From positions 1 to 34,114 of the forward strand of contig JAOPWH010000122.1 in NCBI GenBank assembly GCA_025965795.1: DNA of 34,114 nt, read 5' to 3'. Shown here piece by piece: positions 2,118 to 24,360 of the stretch (position 1 is its first letter; each line of letters opens with the position of its first letter). Made by a program: the position numbers and the translations under genes. The notes below the pieces were generated by a model. It had not been told where the DNA came from and made no database searches. It worked only from the letters and a program-made list of their open reading frames with translations. This DNA comes from Blastococcus sp. Lineage in GTDB: Bacteria; Actinomycetota; Actinomycetes; Mycobacteriales; Geodermatophilaceae.

Positions 2118-2169
2118 CCTCAGTCCTTCCGTTCCGGTGCTCGACCGCGTGCTCCTCCACCTGAGCCGG

Positions 2170-2949: not shown

Positions 2950-2994
2950 GCGCACCTCCACTCCGACGCCGGGAATCCGCTCCGTCCGCTGCGG

Positions 2995-3000
2995 ACCGTA
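2995..3000 (-). promoter_or_regulatory. Likely -10 box of the nagB promoter
   Basis: On the minus strand TACGGT lies about 46 bp upstream of the nagB GTG. A -35 region 17 bp further up would fall inside the palindrome at 3015-3030, so a bound repressor would block it. Confidence 0.4.
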
Positions 3001-3014
3001 ACACCGCGGCGCCC

Positions 3015-3030
3015 GCTGGTTCGTACCAGT
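3015..3030. promoter_or_regulatory. DasR/NagR-like operator 1 (dre-type palindrome)
   Basis: The sequence GCTGGTTCGTACCAGT has perfect CTGGT/ACCAG arms around a 4-bp centre. This matches the layout of the known DasR-responsive element (a TGGT-N4-ACCA core). It lies in the divergent nagB/gntR region, over the expected nagB -35 box. The probable ligand-controlled repressor is the adjacent GntR protein. Confidence 0.65.
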
Positions 3031-3068
3031 CCGGCCCGCGTCCGAGCCGTCACCAGGGCGGACCCGCC

Positions 3069-3084
3069 GGTGGTACGGACCGGG
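3069..3084. promoter_or_regulatory. DasR/NagR-like operator 2 (imperfect)
   Basis: The same TGGT-N4-ACC pattern as operator 1, with one arm degenerate (ACCG instead of ACCA). It sits just upstream of a TACGTT -10 box (3087-3092) for the gntR-nagA operon, so it may mediate autoregulation. Centre-to-centre distance to operator 1 is 54 bp. Confidence 0.45.
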
Positions 3085-3086
3085 TG

Positions 3087-3092
3087 TACGTT
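3087..3092 (+). promoter_or_regulatory. Likely -10 box of the gntR-nagA operon
   Basis: TACGTT lies 34 bp before the regulator start codon and directly follows operator 2. No clear -35 box was found. Confidence 0.35.
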
Positions 3093-3126
3093 CCTCGAAC
3101 CGGGAGGACGACGGGACGGAGGCGAC

Positions 3127-7107: not shown

Positions 7108-8012
7108 GGCTCGAGCACGTTGCGGGCGAGCAGGAAGCCCCGCTTCACCAGCTCGTCGGTGCCCTCGAACTGGCGGTCCTCGTGCTCGACGACGACGGCG
7201 CCCTCGTAGCCGACGCGGATCAGCGCCGACAGGAACCGAGGCCAGTTCACCTCGCCGAGGCCGGGGAGCCGTGGCCGCTGCCAGCCGATGCCGATCGACG
7301 TCGTCCCGTGCTCGTAGAGGCCGTTCCGGTCGATCTCCACGTCCTTGGCCTGCACGTGGTAGATCCGCGAACCGAACTCCTCGACCACCCGCTCGGCGTC
7401 GATCATCTGCCACACCAGATGCGAGGGGTCCAGGTTCAGGCCGAGCGTGTCGCCCGGGATCGCGTCGAACATCGCGCGCCACACCGCCGGTGAGTGCGCC
7501 ATGTTGTTGCCGCCCGGCCACTCGTCCTCGGAGAAGATCATCGGGCAGTTCTCGATGCCGATCTTCACGCCCTGGTCGGCCGCGTAGGACACGAGGTCGG
7601 GCCACACCCTGCGGAACTCCTCGAAGTTCTCCGACGGGGTGCGGTGCCGGTCGTTGCCGATGAAGGTGTTCACCACGGGCACGCCCATCAGCGAGGCGGC
7701 GCGCATGACCGCCTTCAGGTGCTCGTGCGTCATGGCCCGGTGCTCGAGGTCGGGGTGCAGCGGGTTCGGGTAGTAGCCCAGGCCCGACACCTCCACGCCG
7801 CGCTCGCGGAGGTCGGCGACGAGGTCCTCGGCCTCCGACGTGCCCAGGTCGACCACGTCGATGTGCGACGTACCCGCGTAGCGCCGTTGCTCGCCCGAGG
7901 TCCGTGGCCAGCAGGCGATCTCGAGAACCGGATATCCGTTCGCGGCGGCCCAGTCGGCGACGTCGGCGAGCGGAGTGCTCTCGAACGGGGCGGTCAGCAG
8001 CCCGAGCTTCAT
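7095..8012 (-). CDS. Sugar phosphate isomerase/epimerase (AP-endonuclease-2-like TIM barrel)
   Basis: A 305-residue TIM-barrel protein. Metal ligands typical of the family are visible: the Glu in IGIENCPM, Asp and His in LNLDPSHLVWQ, the segment VQAKDVEI and the Glu in VVVEHEDRQF. Family members epimerise, isomerise or dehydrate keto-sugars and inosose (IolE, IolI), and some cleave 3-keto-glycosides by beta-elimination. It does not look like a clear IolE. It is last in the leftward importer operon, its ATG overlapping the upstream oxidoreductase stop by 4 bp (ATGA). Such barrels are often paired with Gfo/Idh/MocA enzymes, as here. The exact reaction is unknown. Confidence 0.82.
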   Translation of the reverse strand: MKLGLLTAPFESTPLADVADWAAANGYPVLEIACWPRTSGEQRRYAGTSHIDVVDLGTSEAEDLVADLRERGVEVSGLGYYPNPLHPDLEHRAMTHEHLKAVMRAASLMGVPVVNTFIGNDRHRTPSENFEEFRRVWPDLVSYAADQGVKIGIENCPMIFSEDEWPGGNNMAHSPAVWRAMFDAIPGDTLGLNLDPSHLVWQMIDAERVVEEFGSRIYHVQAKDVEIDRNGLYEHGTTSIGIGWQRPRLPGLGEVNWPRFLSALIRVGYEGAVVVEHEDRQFEGTDELVKRGFLLARNVLEPYLV

Positions 8013-9169
8013 GTGTCTCTCCTGACGGGCGCCCAGCGCCCGGTCTCGTTGCTGGCGAGGACGGCGTCCTCCAGGTGCAGCCCCTCGACGCCGTCGGCGA
8101 ACGTGGGGAAGTCGGGCTCCGCCGGTTGACGTCCGTCGAGGACGGCGGCGTAGACGGTCTCGACCAGGCCGAGGAAGGACTCGGCGAACCCTTCCGCGTG
8201 CCCGCCGGGATAGTGCGTGATCCGCTGGGCGGCGGGACTCATCAGCGTCGCGTCGCGGAGCAGCAGCTCGTTGAACGCGCCCCGCCGGCCGATCCACAAC
8301 CGCTCCGGGTCCTCGGAGTTCCAGGCCAGCCCGGCGGTGCTGCCCGAGACCTCGAACGACAGCGCGTTCTTCCGCCCCGCCGACACCTGGGACACCGTCA
8401 GCACGCCGCGCGCCCCGTTGTCGAACCGCAGCAGGATGCTCGCCGCGTCCTCGCTGGAGACCCGGACCTCCTCGCGCTCGACGTCGGTGACCCGGTCGGC
8501 GGTGAACGTCTCGACCGAGCCGGTCGGCCGGCGGCGTACCGGCAGGAAGGTGTGCAGATCGGCGAACACCTCCGTGATCCGGGCACCGGTGACGAAGGAG
8601 ACCAGGTCCAGCCAGTGCGAGCCGATGTCGGCCACCGCCCGCAGGCGGCCCGACGCGGCCGGGTCCAGCCGCCAGTTCCAGTCGGTGTCGAGCAGCAGCC
8701 AGTCCTGCAGATAGGAGCCGTGCACCAGCCGGGGCACGCCGAGCTGCCCGTCCTGCACCATCGACCGAGCGTGGTGGACCACCGGGTTGAACCGGATGTT
8801 GAAGCAGACCGCGTGCACCACCCCGGCGCGCTCGGCCGCCGCGAGCATGACGGCGCCGTCCTCGGCGGTGAGCGCGAGCGGCTTCTCGCAGACGACGTGC
8901 TTGCCCGCCGCGATCAGCGCGGAGACCTGCGGGAAGTGCAGGGCGTTGGGGCTGGTCACGTGCACCACGTCGACGCCGTCGTCGGCACACAGCTCGTCCA
9001 GATCGGCGTACACCCGCGGATAGTGGCCACTGGCGCGGGCGGCCGCGGCGTCCCGGGTCAGGACTCCGGCGACCTGCACGCCGACGCGGCGCAGTGCGTC
9101 GATGTGCAGGGCGGCGATGAACCCGGTGCCGATGACCGCAGCCCGCACGTCGGAGAGTCGCCCTGCCAT
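8009..9169 (-). CDS. Gfo/Idh/MocA-family oxidoreductase of the importer operon
   Basis: A 386-residue NAD(P)-dependent dehydrogenase: Rossmann motif AVIGTGFIAALH at 11-22, EKP at 95-97 and the D181/H185 pair in DIGSHWLDLV. It is longer than the two plus-strand family members in this window and resembles the subgroup found with sugar isomerases. It follows the permease with a 1-bp TGATG overlap and precedes the TIM-barrel gene with a 4-bp overlap, so transport and first enzymatic steps are coupled. A role as inositol 2-dehydrogenase (IolG) cannot be excluded. Oxidation of a sugar or glycoside ring carbon is equally possible. Confidence 0.85.
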   Translation of the reverse strand: MAGRLSDVRAAVIGTGFIAALHIDALRRVGVQVAGVLTRDAAAARASGHYPRVYADLDELCADDGVDVVHVTSPNALHFPQVSALIAAGKHVVCEKPLALTAEDGAVMLAAAERAGVVHAVCFNIRFNPVVHHARSMVQDGQLGVPRLVHGSYLQDWLLLDTDWNWRLDPAASGRLRAVADIGSHWLDLVSFVTGARITEVFADLHTFLPVRRRPTGSVETFTADRVTDVEREEVRVSSEDAASILLRFDNGARGVLTVSQVSAGRKNALSFEVSGSTAGLAWNSEDPERLWIGRRGAFNELLLRDATLMSPAAQRITHYPGGHAEGFAESFLGLVETVYAAVLDGRQPAEPDFPTFADGVEGLHLEDAVLASNETGRWAPVRRDT

Positions 9170-10170
9170 CAGGCGCTGCTCCGGCGCCGGGTGGCCCCGC
9201 GTCGAGTGGAGCTGACGTAGACCCAGGCGAGCGCGAGCAGGATGGCGCCGGCGACCAGCTGGCGCAGTGACTCGTCGACGGCGAGGCGGGTGAGCATCGT
9301 GTCGAGCACGGTCAGGATGAGCGCGCCCAGGACGGTGCCGCCGTAACCGCCGGCGCCGCCGAGGATCGATGTGCCGCCGATGACGGCCGCCGCCACCGAG
9401 GGCAGCAGGTACGACGCGGTCAGCTGCAGGTCGACCGCGCCGCTCCGCCCGCCGACCAGGATGCCGGCGACCGCGGCGAGCAGTGCGGCGATGACGTAGA
9501 CGGCGGTCTCCACCCGCCACACCTGGACGCCGGCCAGCCGGGCGGCCCGGCGGTTGTCGCCCACCGCGTACACCAGCCGGCCCAGGCCGGTCCGACGGAG
9601 GAGCAGCACCAGTCCGACGCCGAGGACGGCCCACACGAGGAGGTTCCAGGGCAGCGGACCCAGGAAGGTGCCGCGGCCGAGGTCGAGCACGATCTGCGGC
9701 ATCCGGGTGGCGCCGCCCAGGAACGACTGGCTGCCCACGGTGAGGACGCCGGTGATGATCGCGGCCATCCCCAGGGTCATGATCAGCGGGTTGACCCCGA
9801 AGACGCCGATGGCCAGGCCGTTGACCAGCCCGATCACGAGGGCGACGAGGAAGCCGAGCGCGATCGCCGTGAACGCGCTGTCTCCCGACGCCGCCCGCGA
9901 CCCGACCACGTAGGCGACCGCCGTGGCCGTCATGGTCACCGAGAGGTCGATCCCGCCGGTGAGCATGCACAGCGTCTGCGCGCCGGCGAACAGCGCCAGC
10001 GGGGCGGCGATGAGCAGCGTGTTGCGCAACTGGCCGAGGGAGAAGAAGCCGGTGTCGACGAGTCCGTTGGCCAGGATCAGGGCCAACAGCACGCCGAGCA
10101 GGGCGAGCATCGCCGCGGGGATCCGCCGCAGCGGTGACCCCTGCTGCCGGGGGGCGTCGAGGACGGTCAT
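9169..10170 (-). CDS. Sugar ABC transporter permease (RbsC/BPD_transp_2 family), second permease
   Basis: A 333-residue integral membrane protein with about eight to ten hydrophobic helices. Family motifs are present: CMLTGGIDLSV near residue 70, YAVGDNRRAARLAGV in the cytoplasmic loop that contacts the ATPase, and IGGTSILGGAGGYGGTVLGA near the end. A short cytosolic N-terminus precedes the first helix (about 17-35), and the C-terminus is basic. It forms the membrane channel with the permease encoded just upstream. ATGA overlap with that gene and TGATG overlap with the downstream oxidoreductase show a compact operon. Confidence 0.92.
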   Translation of the reverse strand: MTVLDAPRQQGSPLRRIPAAMLALLGVLLALILANGLVDTGFFSLGQLRNTLLIAAPLALFAGAQTLCMLTGGIDLSVTMTATAVAYVVGSRAASGDSAFTAIALGFLVALVIGLVNGLAIGVFGVNPLIMTLGMAAIITGVLTVGSQSFLGGATRMPQIVLDLGRGTFLGPLPWNLLVWAVLGVGLVLLLRRTGLGRLVYAVGDNRRAARLAGVQVWRVETAVYVIAALLAAVAGILVGGRSGAVDLQLTASYLLPSVAAAVIGGTSILGGAGGYGGTVLGALILTVLDTMLTRLAVDESLRQLVAGAILLALAWVYVSSTRRGATRRRSSA

Positions 10171-11180
10171 GCCTTGCTCCACTTCCGGCGCAGCAGCGAG
10201 CCGCTGAGCACCACGAGCACGATCACCACGCCGCGGACGACCTCGCCGTAGGACGGGTCGACCCCGAAGGAGAGCAGGTTGGCGGGGATGAGGAACAGAC
10301 ACCACACCGCGAGCACCGGCCCGATCAGTCCCCCGACCCCGCCGGTCAGCGCGATGCCACCGAGGACGACGGCGGCCACGGAGCCCAGCGTCGCGGTGTT
10401 GGCGACCGCGATCGAGGCCTGGCCGCCTCCGGTGTAGGCGGTGGTGGCGAGCCCCGCCAGCGCGGTGAACATGCCGGCCAGGGCGTAGGCGGTCATCCGC
10501 GCGCGCGGCGCGCTCACACCCGCGAGGAAGGCCGCCTGCGGGTCGCTGCCCAGCGCGTAGATCGACAGCCCGATGCGGCTGCGCCGCAGCGGCACCCAGA
10601 CGACCAGCAAGGGGACGGCGATGCACAGCAGTGCGGGCCAGTAGGCGGTGCCGGAGCCCACGAACATCTCCTGGAACGAGGGGTTCGCGCCACCACCGGG
10701 CTGCGGCATGATCCAGAGCGCCAACCCCAGCCAGATGAAGCTCGTCGCCAGCGTCACGATGATGTCCGGGACACCCGAGACCGTGATGATCCACCCGGTC
10801 AGCACGCCCACCACCGCGCCGAGCACGAGGGTCAGCGCCGCGAGGGCGAGCGAGGACCCGAAGCCGGCGCCCTCCATCAAGGAGGCGGCGACGCAGTTGA
10901 AGAGGACCATCTGCGCGCCGACGGAGAGATCGATGCCGCCGGCGATGACCACGACGCCCTGGGCCAGGGCGATGAAGACCAGGGGCAGGGTCGAGGTGGC
11001 CAGCGTCTGGAGCTCGAAGGAGCCCCAGGCCCGCACCTGTGTCGACTGCCAGAACAGCAACCCGGCGAACAGCAGCACGAGCGCGCCGGTCCAGGCCTCG
11101 TCCCGGAGGAACCGCTGCAGTCGCCCTCGGGGCTGGGTGGGCGGCGGCATCTGCGGCACCGGCGGTGCGGTGACGGTCAC
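10167..11180 (-). CDS. Sugar ABC transporter permease (RbsC/BPD_transp_2 family), first permease
   Basis: A 337-residue permease with a Pro-rich cytosolic N-terminus (about 25 residues) and a series of hydrophobic helices. The motifs IAGGIDLSVGAQM, IYALGSDPQAAFLAGV and VLGGIALTGGVGGLIGPVLA place it in the ribose/xylose/inositol permease family. The GTG at 11180 overlaps the ATPase stop (GTGA). Having two different permeases suggests a heterodimeric channel. Confidence 0.92.
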   Translation of the reverse strand: MTVTAPPVPQMPPPTQPRGRLQRFLRDEAWTGALVLLFAGLLFWQSTQVRAWGSFELQTLATSTLPLVFIALAQGVVVIAGGIDLSVGAQMVLFNCVAASLMEGAGFGSSLALAALTLVLGAVVGVLTGWIITVSGVPDIIVTLATSFIWLGLALWIMPQPGGGANPSFQEMFVGSGTAYWPALLCIAVPLLVVWVPLRRSRIGLSIYALGSDPQAAFLAGVSAPRARMTAYALAGMFTALAGLATTAYTGGGQASIAVANTATLGSVAAVVLGGIALTGGVGGLIGPVLAVWCLFLIPANLLSFGVDPSYGEVVRGVVIVLVVLSGSLLRRKWSKA

Positions 11181-12709
11181 GAGGCCTCCCTCGGCTCGAG
11201 GTCGTGCGGTCCCAGCTCGTGCGGTCCCAGGTCGTGCGGTCCCAGGTCGTGCATGGCGTGCAGCAGTCGTTCCTCGTCCGCCTCGGCCGCAGGCATCTCC
11301 GCCACGATGCGTCCGTCGTGCAGCACCACCACGCGGTCGCAGACGATGCGGACCTCGCGCAGCTCGCTGGTGAACATGAGCACCGAGCGGCCTTCCGCCG
11401 CCTGCTGGCGCAGCAACCGGTAGATCTGGTGCTTGGTGCCCACGTCGATCCCGCGGGTGGGGTCGAAGCAGAGCATCACGTCGTAACCGCCCACCAGCCA
11501 GCGGCCGATGGTGAGCTTCTGCTGGTTGCCCCCGGAGAGCTGCTTGGCCTGACCGGCCGCCCGCATGTCGATCTCGAGCTCCTCGACGGCCTTGTCCACG
11601 GCACGCCGCTCGGCCCGGTCGCTGATCCAGCCCCACGACCGCATCGAGGAGTAGAGGGGCAGCGCGAGATTCTCCCGGATGGAGCGCTGCGGCAGCACGG
11701 CGTGCTGGCGGTCCGACGGCACGAGGGTGATCCCGCGACGGATGGCCTGGATCGGGTGCCGGCCGCGCACCGGGGTGCCCTCGACGAGCACGCGGCCCGA
11801 CTTCGGGCGGAGGTCGCCGGCCAGCGCGAGGAACAGGTCGTCCTCGCCCTGCCCCTCGAGCGACACCACGCCGAGCACCTCGCCGGGGGCGACGCTCAGC
11901 GAGACGCCCTTGAGCCGGCGGCCGGCCACGAGCTCCTCGACCTCGAGGCGGGGGCGGGCGCCGGGAACCGCGGCGGGCCCGCGTTCGGCCATCGGCAGGT
12001 CCACCCGCGCCGCCCGCTCACCGAGCATGGCGCCGACGATGCGGGCCTCGCTGCCCTCCGCCGTCCGGTGCGTGTCGACCGCCCGGCCGTCGCGCAGGAC
12101 GGTGGCCCGATCGCAGATCTCCCGCACCTCGGTGAGGCGGTGGGAGATGAACAGCACCGACCGGCCCCTGTCGCGCCACTCGCGCATCACCGCGAACACG
12201 CGGTCCGCGTAGTCCGACGGCAGTGCCGCCGTCATCTCGTCGAGGAGCAGCAGCTGGGGGTCGTGGGCGAGCGCCCGCGCGAGGTCGAGCATGCGCAACA
12301 GCGCCAGCGGGAGCGCGTTGACCCGCTCAGCGAGGTCGACGTCGAGCTCGAGCCGGTCGAGCCACGGCCGCACCGCCGCGCGGTCGGTGCCGGTCAGCGT
12401 GAAGTTGTCGGCAACCGACAGGTGCGGCACCAGCGCCGGGTCCTGGAAGACCGGCGCGATGCCGGCCCGCCGCGCATCGACCGGCGAGGAGAAACGGACC
12501 TCGCGGCCGGCGACGGCGATGGTGCCCGAGTCCGGACGCAGGGCGCCGCTGAGGATCTTGACGAGGGTGCTCTTGCCTGCCCCGTTGGCACCGAGGAGTG
12601 CATGGATCTCGCCGGGAGACACCGTGAGATCGGCGGAGACCAGCGCCCGTACCGCGCCGTAGCTCTTGGCGACGTCGCGGACCTCGAGCAGGTCCGGCGG
12701 CTGGGCCAT
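11177..12709 (-). CDS. Sugar ABC transporter ATP-binding protein (RbsA/XylG/MglA type, two domains)
   Basis: A 510-residue double ATPase that powers the importer at the cytosolic face. Domain 1 has an intact Walker A (GANGAGKST, 40-48), Q-loop Q89, Walker B LLLLDE (153-158) and the switch His in FISHRL, but its signature is degraded to LPLALL (133-138). Domain 2 keeps LSGGNQQK (391-398) but has lost the Walker A Lys (LEGQGEDD) and the Walker B Asp (LCFDPTRGID). Only one composite ATP site thus looks complete. The C-terminus carries a HDLGP-type pentapeptide repeat. ATG at 12709 has a GGAGG-type site upstream. A 114-bp gap with a hairpin separates it from the binding-protein gene. Confidence 0.92.
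   Translation of the reverse strand: MAQPPDLLEVRDVAKSYGAVRALVSADLTVSPGEIHALLGANGAGKSTLVKILSGALRPDSGTIAVAGREVRFSSPVDARRAGIAPVFQDPALVPHLSVADNFTLTGTDRAAVRPWLDRLELDVDLAERVNALPLALLRMLDLARALAHDPQLLLLDEMTAALPSDYADRVFAVMREWRDRGRSVLFISHRLTEVREICDRATVLRDGRAVDTHRTAEGSEARIVGAMLGERAARVDLPMAERGPAAVPGARPRLEVEELVAGRRLKGVSLSVAPGEVLGVVSLEGQGEDDLFLALAGDLRPKSGRVLVEGTPVRGRHPIQAIRRGITLVPSDRQHAVLPQRSIRENLALPLYSSMRSWGWISDRAERRAVDKAVEELEIDMRAAGQAKQLSGGNQQKLTIGRWLVGGYDVMLCFDPTRGIDVGTKHQIYRLLRQQAAEGRSVLMFTSELREVRIVCDRVVVLHDGRIVAEMPAAEADEERLLHAMHDLGPHDLGPHELGPHDLEPREAS
11192..11254. repeat. 15-bp tandem repeat inside the ATPase gene
   Basis: About 3.5 to 4 copies of the unit GTCGTGCGGTCCCAG (11201-11215, 11216-11230, 11231-11245, partial copies at the edges) encode the repeated pentapeptide HDLGP/HELGP/HDLEP at the C-terminus. 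The units are nearly identical, which suggests recent slippage. The length stays in frame. Confidence 0.8.
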
Positions 12710-12769
12710 GCGGGCCTCCTGGTTGACGTCGGGACGGGACGCCCGGGCCGGGAACGGCCGCGAGCATGA

Positions 12770-12808
12770 CACGGGCGGCCCGGCGCTCGTCGCGCCGGAC
12801 CGCCCGTG
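12770..12808 (-). terminator. Intercistronic hairpin between binding protein and ATPase genes
   Basis: A 17-bp stem with one C/A mismatch and a 5-base loop (12787-12791), 15 bp beyond the binding-protein stop codon. No T-run follows. In importer operons such hairpins often stop part of the transcripts or protect the upstream mRNA, so that more binding protein than ATPase is made. Confidence 0.6.
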
Positions 12809-12823
12809 GTCAGTGCAGCAAGG

Positions 12824-13885
12824 TCACTCGCCGGGACCCTTGCAGGCGAACAGCTGCTCGTTCGTGTAGGTGGTGTAGGGCTTCACCTGGACGGCCGAGC
12901 TGTAGGTCGACTCGCGGTCGGGGAAGTAGTTCGCCTTCAGCGCTTCCTTGTCGTCCTTGGTCAGCACCTCGGGGGTCAGGACCGTCGCCTTGTCCACGCT
13001 CTTCCCCTCGAGGACGTCCAGGGCGATGGCCGTGCCGACACCGCCGATGACCGCGGGGTTGGTGACGGCGGCACCCTTGACCTTGTCGTCGTTGAGCAGC
13101 ATGCCCACGAACTCGTTGTTGTCGGCGCCGATCACCGGGACCGGGTCGATACCGAGGGTCTCGAAGGCGTTGACGACCGTGTAGTCGATGCCCGAGGTCC
13201 AGATGCCGTCGACCTTCTCCGCGGAGTTGAGGATGTCCAGCGCCTGCTGGCCGCCCTTCGAGAAGTCCCACCCGGTGTTGGTCTCCTGGACGACCTTCAT
13301 GTCGGGGTACTTGCCCAGGGCCTCCATGAAGCCCTCGTGCCGGTCGGTGTCGGCCGGGACACCCGCGATGCCGCGCATCTCGACGACGTTGCCCTTGCCC
13401 TGCAGCATCTCGGCGAGCGCCTCGCCCCCGAGCCGGCCGTACTCCTTCTGGTCGTTGGTGACGTTGTAGGCCGCGTCGGTGGTGACGGCGCTGTCGACGG
13501 CGACGACGACGATGTCCTTCTTCTTCGCCTCCTCGATCACCGAGTTCAGCTTGGTGGGATCGCTGGGGTTCACCACGATCGCGTCGACGCCCTGCGAGAT
13601 GAGCGAGCGGAGGTCGGCGATCTGCTCGGTCGGGCCGCCGTTGCGGTTGGCGGAGATCACCTTGGTGACCTTCCCGCTGGCCAGGGACTGCGCCTTGACC
13701 GCGCAGATCATCTGCTCGCGCCAGCCGTTGCCGACCAGGGTGTTGCTGACGCCGATGATGTAGTCACCACCACCGTTCCCGCCGCCACCGGAGCCCTTGT
13801 CCGAGGAGCCGCCACAGGCGGCGAGGGCGAGGGCGAGGGAGAACGCGACGGAGGTCGTGACCGTCCTGCGGGCGAGGTGTGCCAT
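12824..13885 (-). CDS. Sugar ABC transporter substrate-binding lipoprotein (periplasmic-binding-protein-like, RbsB type)
   Basis: A 353-residue exported lipoprotein. The signal peptide has basic residues (ARR), a hydrophobic core (13-23) and the lipobox LAAC with C24 as the lipidated Cys. A Gly/Ser-rich linker (25-40) follows. The mature part has the two-lobe periplasmic-binding-protein fold of the ribose/inositol group: [18 protein letters not shown] at the start, [20 protein letters not shown] and [16 protein letters not shown]. It should capture a monosaccharide or cyclitol outside the membrane and pass it to the two permeases. The gene is first in a six-gene operon and has its own promoter and operator upstream. 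Confidence 0.93.
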
Positions 13886-13977
13886 GAGCGGGGAACCCTT
13901 CCGGGGAGCGTGGCCGGTGCTGCGGATGCCAGGACGAGCGTCCGGGACGCTCCGCGGTACATGGCCTGAATGGCGCG

Positions 13978-14007
13978 ACTATAGGAGTCGGCACGTGTAT
14001 TTGTCCT
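13978..14007 (-). promoter_or_regulatory. Promoter of the ABC importer operon
   Basis: On the minus strand a -35-like AGGACA (14002-14007) and a good -10 TATAGT (13978-13983) are separated by 18 bp. The -35 hexamer is one arm of the palindrome at 14002-14019, so the bound regulator should block RNA polymerase. The predicted transcript starts near 13971, leaving a leader of about 85 nt. Confidence 0.55.
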
Positions 14008-14019
14008 CACATAAGGACA
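14002..14019. promoter_or_regulatory. Operator copy 1 (TGTCC-N8-GGACA palindrome)
   Basis: The 18-mer TGTCCTCACATAAGGACA. Its reverse complement matches the copy at 21208-21225 at 16 of 18 positions. It overlaps the -35 box of the importer operon and begins seven bases beyond the stop codon of the upstream catabolic operon. The likely binding protein is the GntR regulator at 21263-22003. Confidence 0.7.
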
Positions 14020-14025
14020 TGTGCG

Positions 14026-15045
14026 TTACGGAGTTGTGACACTGGCGTGACGCGAAACCCGCAGCCGCAACGTCGAGGCGCGGGAGGAGCCGGCCCCCAG
14101 CATCGGCAGCCGCCCCGCCGCCCGGTCCGACGCGCGCCCGAGCACCGAGCAGTTCGCCGGCTCGATGCCCAGGACGTACACCCCCGGCGCCGGGTGCACC
14201 CACTGGTGCAGTCGGGGCAGGACTGCCGCGTCCCAGCCGATCTCCACCTCGACGCCCAGCGCCTCGTTGACCACCGAGACCGTGCTCCAGCCGGCCGCCC
14301 CCGGTCCGGGGAGGTGCTCGAAGACCCGCTCGCCACCACCGGGCTCGGGGTCCGGCGCGACGTCCCAGTGCGGCAGTGCCGCCGCGGCCGTCTCGTCGCG
14401 CGGGACCACCTCGGCGGACGGCGCCCGCAGCCGGGCACCCGGAGACCACAGCGGTGCGCCGAGGTTGACGTGGTACAGCAGCGGGGCGGCCACCTCGCGC
14501 GCGCCGAGGTTGGTCACGACGTCACGAACCACGACCTCGCCGCGGCCGGTGGTCGTGGTGACCGTCCGCTCGCAGCGCAGATGTCCGCCGAGGGCCGTCA
14601 CGTCGTCGACCACGCCGGACACCGACAGCAGCACCTGACCTGCCTCGCGAAGTCGGTCGACCCGGACGTCGTGCGCCGGCAGGTGGGAGAAGGTGCCGTG
14701 CTGCCCGTGCCCCTCCGACGGCGCGCCGACGTTCTGCAGTCCGCAGGTGGTGAGCAGGCCGCCACCGAAGGCGGCGTTCCACTCGGTGCCCCGGAGGCCC
14801 GGTCGCGGTCGCACCTCTCCCACCGGCGAGATCCAGGCCAGCGGCAACCCGCCGAACCAGGCTGCGGAGACGTCGAGGCCGCGGTCGGGCAGCAGCCGCA
14901 GGTCCACGCCGTCCAGGACCCGCAGGTCGAGGGCCCGCTGCGGATGACCACGGTCGGCACCGGTGGTCGAGGCGCGGACCGAGGCCACCTGGTCCGGGGA
15001 ACCGAGCAGGCCGGCGTCGGCCAGGTCACCCGCGCCGGGCAGCAT
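14026..15045 (-). CDS. DUF4432 / aldose-1-epimerase-like protein
   Basis: A 339-residue protein of the galactose-mutarotase-like beta-sandwich fold (DUF4432 type). Features that support this are LDLRVLDGVDLRLLPDRGLDVSAAWFGGLPLAWISP near residues 40-75, GGGLLTTCGLQNVG (about 95-108), LLYHVNLGAPLW and the Gln-Trp-Val-His segment near the end. Mutarotases interconvert alpha and beta anomers so that a dehydrogenase can act on the right form. It is the last gene of the catabolic operon, joined to the lactonase gene by a 1-bp TGATG overlap. A mutarotase next to a sugar dehydrogenase and lactonase fits an oxidative sugar pathway. The substrate is unknown. Confidence 0.78.
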   Translation of the reverse strand: MLPGAGDLADAGLLGSPDQVASVRASTTGADRGHPQRALDLRVLDGVDLRLLPDRGLDVSAAWFGGLPLAWISPVGEVRPRPGLRGTEWNAAFGGGLLTTCGLQNVGAPSEGHGQHGTFSHLPAHDVRVDRLREAGQVLLSVSGVVDDVTALGGHLRCERTVTTTTGRGEVVVRDVVTNLGAREVAAPLLYHVNLGAPLWSPGARLRAPSAEVVPRDETAAAALPHWDVAPDPEPGGGERVFEHLPGPGAAGWSTVSVVNEALGVEVEIGWDAAVLPRLHQWVHPAPGVYVLGIEPANCSVLGRASDRAAGRLPMLGAGSSRASTLRLRVSRHASVTTP

Positions 15046-15920
15046 CAGTCCGTTCCGGCCGGTAGGACGTCGGCGGCCCAGGTCGCCGGCCGGTGCAGCG
15101 GCGCGCCGACGAAACCGAGGTCCAGCAGCGTCAGGTGCCAGCGGTTGAGGTTGGCGGCGACGAGGCGGTCGAGACGGGGACCGGCCAGGCAGAGATTGGT
15201 GGGCGCGGCGAGCAGCGTTCCCTCCGGATCGGTCGCGACGACGGTGGCGGTGCCGTCGACCCCCAGGTGGACGATCTGGTCGGGTCGGTAGCAGCTCACC
15301 AGCAGGGAGCCGTCCGCGAGCACCGCGAGGCCGTCCGGGACCGTGCCGGGGAGCCGGACGACGTCCTCCGGGAGCGCGTCGGGGGCGGTCAGGTCGATGC
15401 GGGACACGCCTGGACCCAGGGACTCGACGACGTAGAGCCACCGGCCGTCGGCGCTGACCGCCAGCCCGTTGGGAAAGCGGGGCAGCGCCTCGGTCACGGT
15501 GTGCGCGCTGCCGTCGGGCAGCAGGGCGACCAGCCGGCCGTCGTCGGCCTTCCAGGTTCCGGAGTCGCTCAGCCAGAGGGTGCCGTCCGGTCCGAAAGCC
15601 GCGTAGTTGGGCAGCACCAGGGGCCTCCCGTCCACCTCGGTGAGCACCCGCCGGCTGCGACCGTCCTCGACCACGCAGAGCGACCCGTCGCTGGAGGCGC
15701 AGGCGAGCACGCGGCCGACGCCGTCCACGGCCACCCCGAGCACCAGCCCCGGGACGGTGGCCACCTGCTCGAAGGCGCCGTCGAGGGTTCCGGCATAGAT
15801 CTGGCCCGCCTCGCCCCCGGCGTACAGCCGCTCCGAGACCGGGTCCCAGCACACGCCCTCGGGATGGTCGAGGCCGTCGACGAGGACGCCCGAGTGCGCC
15901 CGCCAGTCAGGTCGCGACAT
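15045..15920 (-). CDS. SMP-30/gluconolactonase-family lactonase
   Basis: A 291-residue six-bladed beta-propeller hydrolase that opens sugar lactones to the acids. The metal ligands expected from the SMP-30 family are in place: E21 (DHPEGVCWD), N105 ([12 protein letters not shown]), N151 (FPNGLAVS) and D196 ([11 protein letters not shown]). The ATG at 15920 lies 14 bp inside the SDR gene's end, and the stop overlaps the next start by one base. Between two dehydrogenases and a mutarotase, it most likely hydrolyses an aldonolactone formed by one of the dehydrogenases. No signal peptide is present, so it acts in the cytosol. Confidence 0.85.
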
Positions 15921-16704
15921 GCCCGACGTTCCCGTTGATGGTGAGTCCGCCGTCGACGACGAGCTCCTGTCCGGTGATGTAGCGGGACGCGTGCGAGGCG
16001 ACGAAGGCGACCACGTCGGCCACCTCCTCCGGAACGCCGATGCGGCCCAGGCCGATCCGGTCGGAGTAGCTCCGGCGCACGGCGTCGTCCCAGGCGACCG
16101 TGTTCAGCGGCGTCTCGATCGCACCCGGCGCGACGGCGTTCACCGTGATCCCGTGCGGCGCGAGTTCCAGCGCGAGGGTGCGCGTCAGCCCGACGATGGC
16201 CCCCTTGGCGGCGATGTAGGTGGACAGACCGCCGACGACGAGGATGTCCGCCGCGGAGGAGATGTTCACGATCCGGCCGTAGCCGTGCTCGGCCATCCGC
16301 CTGGCCGCGGCGGAACAGCCGTGGAAGTACCCGTGCAGGTTCGCCTGCAGCAGTCCGTGCCAGTCCTCGGCCGTGGTGCGCAGGAAGGGTTTGACGACGA
16401 GGGCGGCGGCGTTGTTGACCCAGATGTCGATCGGGCCGAGCTCGTCCTCGACGCGGTCGGCCAGCGCCTCGACGGTGGCCTGGTCGCCGGTGTTCCCGTC
16501 GACCATCAGCGCCCGGCGGCCGTGCGCCTCGACGGCGGCGACCGTGCGCGCGGCCCCCCGGGCGTCGTCGAGGTGCAGGCCGGCCACGTCGGCTCCGCCG
16601 CGGGCGAGGGCCACCGCGATGGCTGCCCCGATCCCGCTCGAGGCGCCGGTGACGACCGCGCGCCGCCCGGCCAGCGAGAAGGGGTCCACCTGCCCCGACG
16701 TCAC
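15907..16704 (-). CDS. Short-chain dehydrogenase/reductase (SDR)
   Basis: A 265-residue classical SDR. It has the cofactor motif TGASSGIG (19-26), NNAA at 97-100, N122, and the catalytic S150, Y163 and K167 (YIAAK). The tail ends in [16 protein letters not shown], typical of the family. Gluconate 5-dehydrogenases and 2-deoxygluconate dehydrogenases belong to this group, so oxidation of a sugar acid next to the lactonase is plausible, but the substrate is not readable from sequence. The GTG at 16704 overlaps the upstream dehydrogenase stop by 4 bp, and the 3' end overlaps the lactonase gene by 14 bp. Confidence 0.88.
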
Positions 16705-17717
16705 GCGCCCGGCTCCAGCACGAACTTCACGCCGTCCCCGGCGCGGGTGCGGGTGACCGCCTTCTCCCACGCCGACAGCGGCAGGACGTCGCTGAGCAGC
16801 GGATCCAGGCGCACCAGCCGGGCGCCGACCAGCCGCTCCGCGCGACGCCACGACCGCGGCGTGCTGGCGAACCCGGACGTGACCGTGAGTTCGTGCAGGG
16901 TCACCACGTCGATCGCGATCGGGACCGGCTTTCCGCACAGGCCGATCTGCACGTAGTGGCCACCCTTGCGGACGGCCGTCAGTGCGGTGTCGATGCCGGC
17001 CGCGGCGCCCGAGCAGTCGGCGACGACGTCGAACCCGGCGCCGGGCGCGGTGAGGTCGCCGGACTCGAGCGCGGTCAGCCCCAGGGCGTCGGCCGCGGCC
17101 AGCCGGAGCGCGTCCCGGGCGGTGCCCACGACGGTGACCCGGGCGCCCTGCGCGGCCAGGACCTGCGCCGCGAGGAGACCCATCGCGCCGGGGCCGACCA
17201 CGAGCGCGGTGTCGCCGGGCGAAGCGACGGCCGGGTCGCACAGGGCGTGCGCGACACAGGCCAGCGGTTCGTACAGGGCCCCCGCCGCCTCCCCCACGGA
17301 CGGATCGACGTCGTGGGCGTTGTGCAGCGGTACGACGACGTGCTCCGCGAACCCGCCGTCGACGTGGCTGCCGATGGAGCGCCGTGTCGCGCACAGGTTC
17401 GGCGAACCGCCGCGGCAGTAGTCGCAGCTGCCACACGTGACGTAGTAGGTCTCGAGGGAGACGCGCCGGCCGATGGCGTCGGTGCTGACGTCTGCACCCA
17501 CCGCGTCGACGATCCCGGTGACCTCGTGACCCATGACCACCGGCGGGATGCTCGGGTACTCGTCGTCCATGATGTGCAGGTCTGTGCCGCAGATCCCGGT
17601 CCCGCGGACCCGCAGGCGGACCTGACCGCGAGCCGGTACGGGCAGGGGCACCTCGCGCAGCGACGTCCCGGCCTGGCCCGGCCCACCCTTCACCAGCGCC
17701 TGCATCGTCTCGGTCAC
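16701..17717 (-). CDS. Zinc-dependent alcohol/sugar dehydrogenase (MDR family)
   Basis: A 338-residue medium-chain dehydrogenase. Catalytic zinc ligands C43 (GICGTDLH) and H64/E65 (MGHE), structural zinc cysteines C95, C98, C101 and C109, EPLAC in the middle, and the nucleotide fold motif GPGAMG are all present. Relatives include sorbitol, threonine and L-idonate/galactitol dehydrogenases. In this operon it could oxidise the C1 hydroxyl of a sugar to the lactone, or a secondary hydroxyl of a sugar acid. The GTG at 17717 overlaps the iolC stop (GTGA). A nearby in-frame ATG at codon 5 is an alternative start. Confidence 0.88.
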
Positions 17718-18673
17718 GGGGTTCCCTCTGCGCGCATCTGCTCGATCTCCTCCAGCGTCGGCATGTCGTCGGCACAGCCCAGGCGCCCGGCGACCAGCGC
17801 GCCCGCGGCGTTGGCGCGGTCGACCGTATCCACGAGGCCCGTCGCGGTCAGGAGGCCGTACATCAGGGCCCCGCCGAACGCGTCGCCGGCGCCGAGGCCG
17901 TTCACCACCTCGACCGGGCGCGGCGGCACACGGACCATCTCCTCCGAGGTGGCCGCCAGCACTCCCTCCGGGCCGAGTTTCACCACCGCCAGCCGTACGC
18001 CGAGGTCGAGCAGCGCCCGCGCCGCGTCCTCGGGCTTCCGGTCCCCGACGACGACAGCCACCTCGCTCTGGTTGCCGACCGCCACCGTGCAGTGCGCGAG
18101 GGCCGCCCGGCCGCGGGGTCCGGCGTCCGCCGGATCGGTCCAGAGGTCGGGGCGGTGGTCCAGGTCCAGGACGGTCAGGGCGTCGCGGGACCGGAGGCGG
18201 AGCGCCGCCATGGTCGTACCGAGGCTGGGTTCCTGCGACAGCCCCGTCCCGGTGACCCAGACCGCCCGCGCGGAGGTGAGCGCGTCGACCGGGAGGTCGG
18301 GCTCCTCGAGGGTGAGGTCGGGGGCGACCGGCGCACGGTAGAAGAGCAACGGGAAGTGGTCCGGCGGATAGATCTCGCAGAAGGCCAGCGGCGTGCGCAG
18401 CGTGGGGTGCGTGCCGATGAACGACGCATCGACGCCGAAGCGCCGCACGGCCGCCCGCGCCGCGTCGCCGAAGCCGTCGGCGCCGACCTTCGTGACGACG
18501 GCGGTCCGCAGGCCGAGCCGGGCAGCGGCGACGGCCACGTTCGTGGGGCTGCCGCCCAGCATCTTCCGGAAGCTCGTCACGTCGCGCAGCGGCGTGCGGC
18601 TCTGGTCCGGATAGAGGTCGATGCTGATCCGCCCGATCGTCACGAGGTCGAACGGCACGCCCGGAGCGGTCAC
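17714..18673 (-). CDS. iolC: 5-dehydro-2-deoxygluconokinase IolC (PfkB family)
   Basis: A 319-residue ribokinase-like kinase. It has the N-terminal GRISIDLYP and [15 protein letters not shown] motifs, the IolC-like stretch [26 protein letters not shown], and the PfkB signature [11 protein letters not shown] with catalytic base D264. The C-terminal PTLEEIEQ also recalls Bacillus IolC (325 residues). It would phosphorylate 2-deoxy-5-keto-D-gluconate at O6. It sits between the DUF2090 aldolase gene and the zinc dehydrogenase gene with 4-bp GTGA overlaps on both sides. IolB, IolD and IolE genes, normally nearby, are not in this window. Confidence 0.86.
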
Positions 18674-19647
18674 GCCGGCACCTCCGCAGGACGCCGGGCC
18701 ACGCCGCCGAGGTACGCCGCGATGCAGGCTTCGTAGGTGCTGGCCATCTCCGCGATCGCGTGGTCGCGGGACATCCCCCCGGACAGCCAGGCATCCAGGG
18801 GTCCGGCCCAGATCGTCCGGCCGACGGCGAACCCGTCGTATCCCGCCGCCGCGGAGTGATCGATGCCGGTCACGGTGGCGTCGACGTCCGCGCCCCCGCC
18901 CAGCACCACCACCCGCACGTCCGGATCGGCGGCCCGGCAGGCCGAGAGGAGCCGGGCGAAGTCGCCGGACCGGCTCGGCGCCTCCAGCTTCCACACCGCG
19001 GGCCGGATGCCCCCGGCGATCAGCTGGTCGAGCGCCCGCAGGGTCAGCGGCAGACGCTGCCGGTCGACGTAGTCGGGCGCCTGCTGCTCGGGCAACGCCG
19101 GGACGAGCAGCTCGAACAGCAGCTGGCGACCGGCGGTCCGGCACCAGTCCGACAGTGCGCGCAGACGGGCGGTCTGCCGATTGAGCAGCGCGGCGTCGTC
19201 CTCGGGATTGTGGCGGACCAGGACCTTGACCAGCTGGGGGTCGAACGTGTCGAGGTGCCCGGCGAATCGTTCGCCGAACTCACAGAGGAACTCCCCGGCC
19301 CTGCTGCGCTCGGCCGGCATCGCCAGCACCAGCCGCTCGGCACGGGCGCGCAGGGCCACGTGCGCCCCGTACTGCTCGTCGACGAAGATCCCCAGACCAT
19401 CGCGGGCGGCCGGCGCCGTCCGCTTCCGCACGAGCAGGCACGCCTCGAGCACCAGCTCCTTGGCCGTCGCGATGGTGGCGAACCGGCTCAGGTCTCCGCC
19501 GCCGCGTCCGTCGATCATCTGCTCGAAGTAGTCGCGGTGGTCGAACGCGCACAGCAGGAGGGCGCCGCGGCCGGCCGGCGCGCCGTCGGGACCGTTCAGC
19601 GACCGGCCCCCGGGAGTAGGCCCGGCGACGGGCTGGAACTCCTCCAC
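18670..19647 (-). CDS. DUF2090 TIM-barrel aldolase, probable 2-deoxy-5-keto-gluconate-6-phosphate aldolase
   Basis: A 325-residue protein of the DUF2090 family, often found fused to IolC in proteobacteria. The barrel core includes LLLCAFDHRDYFEQM (about 31-45), GIFVDEQYGAHV, LVKVLVRHNP, LLFELLVPALPEQ and IRPAVWKLEAPS with a candidate Schiff-base Lys, then GFAVGRTIWAGPL. It would split the phosphorylated keto-acid into dihydroxyacetone phosphate and malonate semialdehyde, feeding IolA. Position between iolA and iolC strongly supports this. The GTG at 19647 follows the iolA stop with one base between. No strong ribosome-binding site is visible, so coupling is likely. Confidence 0.8.
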   Translation of the reverse strand: MEEFQPVAGPTPGGRSLNGPDGAPAGRGALLLCAFDHRDYFEQMIDGRGGGDLSRFATIATAKELVLEACLLVRKRTAPAARDGLGIFVDEQYGAHVALRARAERLVLAMPAERSRAGEFLCEFGERFAGHLDTFDPQLVKVLVRHNPEDDAALLNRQTARLRALSDWCRTAGRQLLFELLVPALPEQQAPDYVDRQRLPLTLRALDQLIAGGIRPAVWKLEAPSRSGDFARLLSACRAADPDVRVVVLGGGADVDATVTGIDHSAAAGYDGFAVGRTIWAGPLDAWLSGGMSRDHAIAEMASTYEACIAAYLGGVARRPAEVPA

Positions 19648-19648
19648 G

Positions 19649-21145
19649 TCAGTTCGACGTCGGGAACGCGTAGCTGGCGACGGCACGCGGCCAGCGAGCC
19701 GTCACGACCTTGCCGCGCGTGTAGAAGGCGACACCCTCGGGACCGTGCACGTGCGTATCGCCGAACAGGGAGTCCTTCCAGCCGCCGAAGCTGTAGTACG
19801 CCATCGGGACGGGGACCGGCACGTTGATGCCGATCATGCCGACCTGCACCCCGCGCTGGAACCGTCGGGCGGCCTCGCCGCTCGACGTGAAGATCGCCGT
19901 GCCGTTGCCGTAGGGATTGGCGTTGACCAAGCGGATCGCCTCGTCCACGTCGGCGACGCGCAGCGTCGACAGGACGGGTCCGAAGACCTCCTCGCGGTAC
20001 ACGGTCATCGAGGGCCGGACGTGGTCGAGGACGGTGGGGCCGACGAAGAACCCGTTCTCCGAACCAGGGACGACGAGTCCGCGGCCGTCCACGACGAGCT
20101 CGGCACCCTCCTCCTCGGCGGAGGTGATCAGCCCGACGATCCGGTCGCGGGCCGCGGCGGTGATGACCGGGCCCATGTCGGAGGTGGCATCCCGGCCCGG
20201 GCCGACGACGATCGTGCGGGCGCGGTCCCGGATGGTGGCCGCGAGCTCGGCAGCCACCCCGCCGACGGCGACCGCCGCCGACACGGCCATGCACCGCTCC
20301 CCGGCGGAGCCGAAGGCTGCGGCAAGGAGGTGGTCGGCGGCCCCGTCGAGGTCGGCGTCGGGAAGGACGACGGCGTGGTTCTTGGCGCCGCCGAGGGCCT
20401 GGACCCGCTTTCCGGCCCGGCTCGCCCGCTCGAAGATCGACCGTGCGATCGGGGTGGAGCCGACGAAGGAGACGGCCGCGACGTCGGGATGGTCGAGGAG
20501 CGCGTCGACGGCGGTCCGGTCGCCCTGCAGCACGGAGAACACGCCGTCGGGCAGGCCTGCCTCCGCCCACAGTTCGGCGATCCGCAGTGATGCCGAGGGA
20601 TCGCGCTCGCTGGGCTTGAGGACGAAGGTGTTGCCGCAGGCGATCGCGACCGGGTGCATCCACATGGGCACCATGACGGGGAAGTTGAACGGCGTGATGC
20701 CGGCCACCACCCCGAGCGGCTCCCGGAAGGAGAACGCGTCGACGTCGGTGGAGATCTGGTCGGAGTAGTCGCCCTTGAGCAGCTGCGGTATGCCGCAGGC
20801 GAACTCGACCACCTCCAGTCCGCGCTGCACCTCCCCTCGGGCGTCGGCGAGGACCTTGCCGTGCTCGGCGGAGATGATGCCGGCGAGTTCGTCGATGTGG
20901 TCGTGCACGAGCTGGCGGAAGGCGAACAGCACGCCCGTGCGGCGGCTGAGCGAGGCCTGCGACCAGTGCTCGAACGCCGCGACCGCGCTGCGCACCGCCG
21001 CGTCCACGTCGCCGGCCGAGGCCAGGGTGACCTGGGCCTGGATCTCTCCCGTCGCCGGGTCGTGCACGGGCGCCGTGCGCTCCCCCGTGCCGGCCGCCCG
21101 ACGGCCGTCGATCCAGTGCTCGATGATTCGCACGGGGCTTCCCAT
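19649..21145 (-). CDS. mmsA: CoA-acylating (methyl)malonate-semialdehyde dehydrogenase IolA/MmsA
   Basis: A 498-residue aldehyde dehydrogenase that makes acetyl-CoA or propionyl-CoA and CO2 from (methyl)malonate semialdehyde. The catalytic Cys is C285 (GERCMA), and N154 lies in TPFNFP. The usual general-base Glu of aldehyde dehydrogenases is replaced in QALGGAKNH (A250), a hallmark of CoA-dependent MMSDH. EEVFGPVLS and a GGWKDSLFGD tail segment agree. The ATG at 21145 is directly preceded by GAGG with no spacing. The GTG at 21133, with GGGAAG four bases upstream, may be the true start. First gene of the seven-gene operon. Confidence 0.92.
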   Translation of the reverse strand: MGSPVRIIEHWIDGRRAAGTGERTAPVHDPATGEIQAQVTLASAGDVDAAVRSAVAAFEHWSQASLSRRTGVLFAFRQLVHDHIDELAGIISAEHGKVLADARGEVQRGLEVVEFACGIPQLLKGDYSDQISTDVDAFSFREPLGVVAGITPFNFPVMVPMWMHPVAIACGNTFVLKPSERDPSASLRIAELWAEAGLPDGVFSVLQGDRTAVDALLDHPDVAAVSFVGSTPIARSIFERASRAGKRVQALGGAKNHAVVLPDADLDGAADHLLAAAFGSAGERCMAVSAAVAVGGVAAELAATIRDRARTIVVGPGRDATSDMGPVITAAARDRIVGLITSAEEEGAELVVDGRGLVVPGSENGFFVGPTVLDHVRPSMTVYREEVFGPVLSTLRVADVDEAIRLVNANPYGNGTAIFTSSGEAARRFQRGVQVGMIGINVPVPVPMAYYSFGGWKDSLFGDTHVHGPEGVAFYTRGKVVTARWPRAVASYAFPTSN

Positions 21146-21207: not shown

Positions 21208-21225
21208 TGTCCGTATGTCAGGACA
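21208..21225. promoter_or_regulatory. Operator copy 2 (TGTCC-N8-GGACA palindrome)
   Basis: The 18-mer TGTCCGTATGTCAGGACA lies in the divergent region between mmsA and the GntR gene. It matches the reverse complement of the copy at 14002-14019 at 16 of 18 positions. On the minus strand it overlaps a possible -10 box TAATGT (21223-21228). A plus-strand -35-like TTAGCC follows directly. It could therefore control both directions. Confidence 0.7.
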
Positions 21226-21255
21226 TTAGCCTCAACGGCCGGAAGCGACTAGGTT
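21226..21255 (+). promoter_or_regulatory. Probable promoter of the GntR gene (leaderless)
   Basis: TTAGCC (21226-21231) and TAGGTT (21250-21255) are spaced by 18 bp. The expected transcription start is at about the GTG start codon (21263). Confidence 0.4.
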
Positions 21256-21262
21256 GCGCCGC

Positions 21263-22003
21263 GTGACACTCGTGGACCCGGTGCTCCAGAGGTCGAGTCC
21301 CGTGCCCTTGTACTTCCAGGTCGCCCAGCACCTGGAGGCGGCGATCGAGCGCGGCGATCTCCGGGTGGGCGACCGCCTCGAGAACGAGGTCACCCTCTCC
21401 GAGCGCTGGGGCCTGTCCCGTCCGACCGTCCGCCAGGCCATCGGCGACCTCGTCGACAAGGGACTCCTCGTCCGCACGCGCGGCGTCGGCACTCAGGTCG
21501 TCCGCCGCCGGGTCCAGCGCCAGGTGCAGCTGACCAGCCTCTTCGAGGACCTGCGGTCCTCGGGCCAGCAGCCGACGACGTCGGTGCTCGTGCTGGAGCG
21601 GGCCCCGGCCGACGACGAGATCGCCGAGCACCTCGGTCTGCCGTCCGGGTCGGAGGTGGTGCACATCGAGCGGGTCCGGCGGGCCCGGGGCGTGCCGCTC
21701 GCCGTGCTGCGCAACTGGCTCCCGGTGACGGTCGCGGGCTCGATCGAGCGCGCCGCCCTCGAGGAGCACGGCCTCTACGAGTGCCTGCGCACCGTGGGTG
21801 CGCACGTGCATTCGGCTCAGCAGCGCATCGGGGCACGCGCCGCCTCCGCCGCCGAGGCGCGGCTGCTGGAGGTTCGCCGTGGAGCGCCGCTGCTCACCAT
21901 GGAGCGCAGCGCCTCCGACGACCGGGCACGTCCCGTGGAGTGGGGGTCGCACGTCTACGACGCGCGGGCGTACTCGTTCACGGTGAACCTGCAGTCGGGC
22001 TGA
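21263..22003 (+). CDS. GntR-family transcriptional regulator with UTRA domain
   Basis: A 246-residue regulator of the HutC type. Residues 14-80 are the winged helix-turn-helix (PLYFQVAQHLEAAIERGDL, SERWGLSRPTVRQAIGDLV and the wing RTRGVGTQVV). Residues of about 95-245 form the UTRA ligand-binding domain, ending ARAYSFTVNLQSG. The GTG at 21263 was chosen because a TAGGTT -10 box ends seven bases before it (leaderless). GTG at 21272 is also possible. It is divergent from the mmsA operon, with the TGTCC/GGACA palindrome between, so it is the best candidate for controlling both this operon and the importer operon. The effector is probably a pathway intermediate. Confidence 0.88.
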   Translation: MTLVDPVLQRSSPVPLYFQVAQHLEAAIERGDLRVGDRLENEVTLSERWGLSRPTVRQAIGDLVDKGLLVRTRGVGTQVVRRRVQRQVQLTSLFEDLRSSGQQPTTSVLVLERAPADDEIAEHLGLPSGSEVVHIERVRRARGVPLAVLRNWLPVTVAGSIERAALEEHGLYECLRTVGAHVHSAQQRIGARAASAAEARLLEVRRGAPLLTMERSASDDRARPVEWGSHVYDARAYSFTVNLQSG

Positions 22004-24283: not shown

Positions 24284-24360
24284 TGGTAGCGGGGGCAGGA
24301 TTCGAACCTGCGACCTCTGGGTTATGAGCCCAGCGAGCTACCGAGCTGCTCCACCCCGCG
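24284..24360 (-). tRNA. Initiator tRNA-fMet (CAT), 3' CCA encoded
   Basis: Same cloverleaf as the copy at 473-546: C1 opposite T72, three G-C pairs in the anticodon stem, anticodon CAT. It differs in one T-stem pair (G-C here, A-T in the other copy), which keeps the stem paired, and it encodes the terminal CCA. It lies between the UPF0182 and SNF2 genes on the same strand. Confidence 0.93.

Follow-up and report, generated by a model that had tools for sequence, protein, structure and literature searches.

How is the lower half of the myo-inositol pathway supplied with substrate when its genes stand apart from those of the enzymes that open the inositol ring? This question is raised by a stretch of 34,114 nucleotides from Blastococcus sp. 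(assembly GCA_025965795.1, contig JAOPWH010000122.1; the whole stretch is called the window here), in which a minus-strand run of 13 genes (7095-21145) contains seven enzyme genes, an ATP-binding cassette (ABC) importer, a Gfo/Idh/MocA dehydrogenase and a PF01261 TIM barrel. The best reading of this gene set is an oxidative entrance to the lower branch of the inositol pathway that is free of IolB, IolD and IolE. Tentatively, at a little under an even chance, we see the run as a co-regulated import and catabolism system that feeds IolC, an aldolase and MmsA oxidatively and bypasses IolE, IolD and IolB.

Enzymes and importer of the operon

The first-pass annotation had placed seven enzyme genes in one operon at 14026-21145. 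All seven lie there on the minus strand, match the models of their families and, taken from their longest possible starts, have frames that overlap by 7-38 bases. That list was right but stopped short, as the importer, the Gfo/Idh/MocA and the TIM barrel genes, which extend the run to 7095, were not on it. Along the run, adjacent frames overlap (again from the longest possible starts) except for gaps of 140 bases before the binding-protein gene and 51 bases before the ATPase gene.

Three of the seven proteins have the families of the inositol lower branch. MmsA/IolA (19649-21145, minus strand as are all genes of the run) is a CoA-acylating (methyl)malonate-semialdehyde dehydrogenase that scores 718 bits on TIGR01722 (cut-off 448.5) and contains the GERC motif. 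The stand-alone DUF2090 aldolase (18670-19686; PF09863, 130 bits, cut-off 27) has K154 and E192, 38 residues apart, which is the spacing of K126 and E164, the catalytic residues of LacD (PMC9007349). IolC, the 5-dehydro-2-deoxygluconokinase (17714-18697), scores 348 bits on TIGR04382 (cut-off 300), on which eight reference IolCs score 356-391.

The other four enzymes are a zinc-dependent medium-chain dehydrogenase (16701-17741; PF08240/PF00107), proposed to be an aldonate 5-dehydrogenase, a short-chain dehydrogenase (SDR; 15907-16710; PF13561, 207 bits), proposed to be an aldose 1-dehydrogenase, an SMP-30/gluconolactonase-like lactonase (15045-15920; PF08450, 80 bits, cut-off 26.3; HPEG, FPNG and VPDG motifs) and a DUF4432 aldose-1-epimerase-like protein (14026-15051; PF14486, 276 bits, cut-off 32.5). 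IolC, the zinc enzyme, the SDR, the SMP-30 protein and MmsA retain their customary motifs, which we take to have their usual meanings. In DUF4432, H118, H194 and E297 are invariant in all 18 aligned sequences and presumably match residues of galactose mutarotase.

The importer is an Rbs-type ABC system for sugars, composed of a binding protein (12824-13885; PF13407, 193 bits), a double ATPase (11177-12772; PF00005 in two stretches, AraG/RbsA-like though under the cut-offs) and two permeases (10167-11183 and 9169-10173; PF02653, 97 and 107 bits, respectively). It is followed by the Gfo/Idh/MocA dehydrogenase (8009-9172; PF01408/PF22725) and the AP_endonuc_2 TIM barrel (7095-8012; PF01261, 130 bits), a putative hydratase/eliminase or epimerase.

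Ring-opening enzymes and the host genome

The absence of the ring-opening enzymes, asserted earlier for this operon, extends to the host genome as assembled (4.0 Mb in 317 contigs, 88% complete). None of IolB, IolD and IolE was seen among the scanned window proteins, and in the genome there is no PF04962 (IolB) match, IolD reaches just 43 and 36 bits where the cut-off is 715, and the sole match to the IolE model, 32 bits against a cut-off of 290, is the window TIM barrel itself. This last cut-off is strict: a pair of IolE genes from IolD-type clusters fall short of it at 148 and 162 bits, values still far over 32. The window IolC has three matches in its own genome, itself at 709 bits and two others under about 76 bits.

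These results bear on the simplest alternative, namely that the host degrades inositol in the ordinary manner, with iolB, iolD and iolE genes that the assembly failed to capture, and that the extra genes of the operon serve another sugar. The completeness and fragmentation of the assembly leave room for this, and a genome of the same genus (G008) has a canonical inositol cluster. However, the extra genes form one run with iolC here and stand with iolC again in a distant genome (G699, below) that has no IolD candidate. Moreover, among 40 IolC neighbourhoods of the order (32 best matches and 8 further down, at most 20 kb each) IolD is present in 35, and the window locus has none. We therefore consider ordinary inositol catabolism very improbable.

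Rarity of the gene combination

Across 298 genomes of the order, near-full-length relatives of the window IolC are at most 58% identical. A Cgl0159-type aldolase gene lies in 33 of the 40 IolC neighbourhoods, as judged by similarity to one reference (one of these genes, in L115, is confirmed by Pfam), and DUF4432, SMP-30 and DUF2090 occur in none of them at 45 bits or more. Among 98 close relatives, the host itself counted, DUF2090 has a match in two and DUF4432 in four. One of the 40 is a variant IolC locus (L153 in G494), in which a LacD-type aldolase is accompanied by a zinc dehydrogenase, an SDR, a PF04199 cyclase, an Amidohydro_2 protein and an Rbs-type importer; the same genome has an IolD-type cluster.

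Across the phylum, relatives of DUF2090 are found in 58 of 395 other genomes at 26-43% identity. In 40 regions around such matches, many of them on short contigs, IolC appears only in two (L070 and L071), apparently fused to DUF2090. As a marker of the operon, DUF2090 gave 43 pattern matches in a profile scan of contigs, none of which was confirmed. Plasmid matches are mostly annotated as iolC; the two best are stand-alone and neither adjoins an annotated iolC. One of these two (Polaromonas) adjoins transaldolase, transketolase and phosphoketolase genes, and the stand-alone DUF2090 genes of L032-L067 and L077, mostly about 40% identical, have no IolC in the sequence examined.

A scan of the DUF4432 alignment against genome contigs gave a best 80 loci of which one, in G699, includes IolC. 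Relatives at 52-57% identity (L154-L156, L158 and L159) lack the window enzyme set in the sequence examined, and that of L154 lies near two Sugar_tr transporters; DUF4432 alone is not specific for the enzyme set of the operon. At three further loci (L078, L079 and L080) DUF4432 and an SDR lie near genes that by eye resemble CaiB-type CoA-transferases, in L078 also with an enoyl-CoA-hydratase-like gene and SMP-30, which is possibly a CoA-dependent route for sugar acids.

A second locus and a probable division of labour among the dehydrogenases

That the mutarotase-dehydrogenase-lactonase set is joined to lower inositol genes, as first noted in the window, is borne out by a second locus. In G699, a metagenome-assembled genome of a distant actinomycetote, the locus L161 contains SDR, SMP-30, DUF4432, Gfo, TIM barrel, zinc dehydrogenase and IolC genes, arranged on one contig as IolC-ZnDH beside TIM-Gfo-DUF4432-SMP30-SDR. 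A second contig ends with the genes for a binding protein, an ATPase and two permeases, and has a short IolC match at its end. No IolD candidate was found in this genome, in which IolB and IolE were not searched for. In the comparison of the operon across related genomes that had been called for, no IolC neighbourhood among the 40 has the set, and 11 of the 13 operon proteins have counterparts in G699 at 47-65% identity (the ATPase alignment covers just 322 residues, its matches lying in two different frames). In a quick tree the IolCs of the two operons cluster together (support 0.973), and their next neighbour (support 0.906) is the IolC of an IolD-type cluster in G701.

A third locus separates the upper set from IolC. 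In L178, of a member of the Trueperaceae, SMP-30, SDR and DUF4432 lie together and no IolC is seen in the locus, which fits one unit for mutarotation, C1 oxidation and lactone opening. Their grouping in a locus that lacks IolC makes the SDR the likelier candidate for C1 oxidation, and because the zinc gene directly follows iolC in both operons, the zinc enzyme is more likely the one that makes the 5-keto acid. The earlier proposal had left C5 oxidation to either enzyme; these loci favour the zinc enzyme and count against the SDR. The order of steps proposed earlier is supported in part: SDR, SMP-30 and DUF4432 appear to form the unit that turns an aldose into an aldonate, and the steps of Gfo and the TIM barrel had been missed.

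Regulation

The divergent regulator gene (21254-22003, plus strand; PF07702/PF00392) encodes a GntR/UTRA protein of the inositol-operon type, for which 21 of the 40 IolC loci have a GntR gene that matches it with 200-268 bits. Counting of 10-mers in 20 GntR-IolC intergenic regions and the window yielded a motif, of which the 10-mer TGTCAGGACA is present in 11 of the 21 regions. The looser form TGTCNNGACA lies at most 400 bases from the start of the GntR frame in 13 of 21 loci and occurs 24 times in 749,781 bases elsewhere, figures that, like the choice of the motif, rest on overlapping regions with the window included. In the window it occurs once, before MmsA/GntR, the bare pattern being expected there 0.46 times by chance. 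This site, between the two genes at 21208-21226 (plus strand), contains the operator-like palindromes TGTCCGTATGTCAGGACA, with one mismatch, and ATGTCAGGACAT, whose 12 bases are expected 0.02 times in the window. A second palindrome, TGTCCTCACATAAGGACA, precedes the binding-protein gene (14002-14019, plus strand). With up to one mismatch, TGTCCT-N6-AGGACA is found three times in the window versus 0.06 expected: exactly before the binding-protein gene, with one mismatch at the MmsA/GntR site, and exactly in the interior of a neighbouring gene. Across 767 kb of comparison loci, exact TGTCCT and AGGACA halves separated by 0-12 bases are found a single time. Judged by sequence, the regulator belongs to the inositol-operon subfamily and has an operator-like site common to inositol operons. 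It would control the operon through the palindromes before MmsA and the binding-protein gene, and probably senses an intermediate common to inositol breakdown.

The Gfo/TIM pair

The top-ranked plasmid relatives of the Gfo and TIM barrel proteins (417 and 421 bits) adjoin each other on a Chloroflexota plasmid and are followed by a ROK kinase. In Enterococcus raffinosus a ROK gene directly follows the TIM relative and in Niallia it lies about 2.4 kb downstream; the Gfo genes at these two sites are distant (38-54 bits). Metabacillus has a close Gfo relative (367 bits) and no ROK gene within the annotated stretch. By analogy, the sites of such related pairs weakly suggest that the pair releases a free hexose, a role that LgdB2 and LgdC have in the use of levoglucosan (PMC7676230). 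An epimerase role like that of IolO in L-glucose use (PMC12632266) would fit equally well.

The same two proteins and the zinc enzyme could also act on a ring. A deoxyinositol of the quercitol type would be oxidised by Gfo/Idh and the zinc enzyme to a cyclic 1,3-diketone, which SMP-30 would cut to 2-deoxy-5-keto-gluconate, the TIM barrel correcting C4 as IolO, a 5-keto-L-gluconate 4-epimerase (PMC12632266), does on 5-keto-L-gluconate. The carbon balance of this route works on reasoning; the zinc enzyme matches the model of IolM, the scyllo-inosose 3-dehydrogenase, at 135 bits, and fifth among the PDB matches listed for Gfo is 5ya8, a scyllo-inositol/L-glucose dehydrogenase (126 bits). However, the IolM score, fourth among the NCBIfam models listed, is far under its cut-off of 450 and under the 187 bits of tdh, itself far under cut-off. 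SMP-30 proteins are not known as diketone hydrolases. The mutarotase-like DUF4432 would be left without a clear job, and SMP-30, SDR and DUF4432 also occur together without IolC in L178. A deoxyinositol route thus appears unlikely.

Proposed pathway and its substrate

In the oxidative entrance that we prefer, the importer would bring in a compound resembling a hexose, most probably a 2-deoxyhexose or its glycoside, and Gfo/Idh and the TIM barrel would yield the free aldose by 3-keto-sugar chemistry (oxidation, elimination or hydration, reduction) or by correcting a stereocentre. DUF4432 would provide the right anomer, the SDR would oxidise C1 and SMP-30 would open the lactone to the aldonate, roles in which the families are observed and the substrates are proposed. 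The zinc dehydrogenase would then oxidise C5 to give 2-deoxy-5-keto-gluconate. For the last three enzymes, families and key residues are found and the reactions are taken from the inositol pathway: IolC would phosphorylate this acid, DUF2090 would cleave the product into dihydroxyacetone phosphate and malonate semialdehyde, and MmsA would convert the latter into acetyl-CoA.

Since MmsA needs malonate semialdehyde, a 2-deoxy substrate is favoured. The best fit is a 2-deoxyhexose or a 2-deoxyhexoside; a deoxyinositol and a non-deoxy 5-ketoaldonate are less likely candidates. Plain glucose was considered by way of 3-oxidation and 1,2-dehydration and was dropped on reasoning, as ring cleavage of the product does not give an IolC substrate.

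Several observations weigh against this reconstruction. The operon IolCs have in common V216 and D311, at positions that are Ala in all 43 reference IolCs, and L185, which replaces the Phe of 41 of the 43; because of these departures the substrate of the operon IolC could differ. Loci with the set number only two so far, both in draft genomes. G699 yielded neither a DUF2090 nor a Cgl0159 aldolase and has its closest MmsA (59% identity) on a separate contig, which means that the lower half has not been kept next to the other genes there; neither TGTCNNGACA nor TGTCCT-AGGACA was found in the G699 stretches. Elsewhere stand-alone DUF2090 genes are found outside inositol clusters, and therefore such a gene by itself is no proof of the inositol reaction. 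Apart from 2,6-dideoxy sugars, 2-deoxyhexoses are seldom met in nature.

Some of these points favour a non-deoxy route, in which an ordinary or L-type hexose would become a 5-keto-aldonate that IolC and DUF2090 convert to dihydroxyacetone phosphate and tartronate semialdehyde, the C3 piece being taken by MmsA or another enzyme. Such a route would be in line with the substitutions common to the operon IolCs, it accords with G699, where neither MmsA nor DUF2090 adjoins the set, and the upper set is like that of L-glucose/L-galactose catabolism to 5-keto acids (PMC12632266). Against it, the operon MmsA is of the CoA-acylating (methyl)malonate-semialdehyde type, at 718 bits, and is grouped with IolC and DUF2090, and both the regulator and the operator-like site are of the inositol type. 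On balance we regard the non-deoxy route as rather unlikely.

The 2-deoxy reading in its full form is a complete pathway for 2-deoxyhexoses or 2-deoxyhexosides, in which 3-keto-type deglycosylation, C1 oxidation, lactone hydrolysis and C5 oxidation lead to 2-deoxy-5-keto-gluconate, and the lower branch would be a hub that has more than one entrance. We put this forward as a doubtful but real possibility, perhaps one chance among three. Among the papers listed or read in literature searches, none described this route or a bacterial pathway of this kind for this substrate class. If the oxidative entrance is real, the IolC-aldolase-MmsA series would not be a tail reserved for inositol, since one or more oxidative sugar routes would feed it as a module, and growth on inositol could no longer be predicted from IolC. 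The operon would also bring together testable roles for DUF4432, stand-alone DUF2090 and the Gfo/TIM pair.

Neighbouring genes

The run converges with another cluster (1209-7107), which has a ROK kinase and a NagB-like gene on the minus strand and genes for a GntR/UTRA regulator, a NagA-like amidohydrolase and two Gfo/Idh proteins on the plus strand, and which probably serves amino-sugar use. Two near-identical tRNA-Met(CAT) genes (472-546 and 24284-24360), on the same strand, lie on either side of the sugar region; that at 472-546 ends without CCA.

Comparison with known systems

The Thermotoga inositol pathway consists of IolG, IolM, IolN and IolO. The operon resembles it in a Gfo/Idh protein, a zinc dehydrogenase and a TIM barrel accompanied by an importer, and differs in its zinc enzyme (135 of the 450 bits demanded for IolM) and in its lower branch, which is IolC-type. 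The oxidative deoxyribose/deoxyribonate pathway differs from the operon in carbon number and enzymes. To judge from the title of PMC6365646, it likewise turns a deoxy-aldose into an acid before cleavage. Levoglucosan and 3-keto-glycoside degradation (LgdA, LgdB1, LgdB2 and LgdC; PMC7676230 and PMC10066097) shares at family level a Gfo/Idh protein and a PF01261 TIM barrel beside a sugar ABC importer. Unlike that pathway, the operon has no ROK kinase; there is one in the neighbouring cluster.

L-Glucose catabolism, according to PMC12632266, oxidises aldonates to 5-keto acids, and an IolO homologue carries out C4 epimerisation. The Paracoccus lgn and Luteolibacter lgu systems resemble the operon in the conversion of aldose to aldonate and 5-keto-aldonate by dehydrogenases and in their IolO-type epimerase; however, they proceed via 2-keto-3-deoxygluconate, whereas the operon has IolC and MmsA. 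No sugar-acid dehydratase of the IlvD or enolase type is among the 13 operon proteins; PF01261, which is present, includes dehydratases such as IolE.

The myo-inositol (iol) pathway itself is also among the close relatives. The operon departs from it in its extra oxidative enzymes and in a genome without IolB and without IolD or IolE above threshold, and from the iol loci of the order in using a stand-alone DUF2090 where most of them have the Cgl0159-type aldolase (33 of 40). By family, its DUF2090 protein would be the 2-deoxy-5-keto-gluconate phosphate aldolase of the iol pathway. With that pathway the operon shares the inositol-type GntR with its operator-like site and a lower branch of the order IolC, IolJ/DUF2090/Cgl0159 and IolA/MmsA, represented by IolC, by DUF2090 with both catalytic residues and by MmsA.

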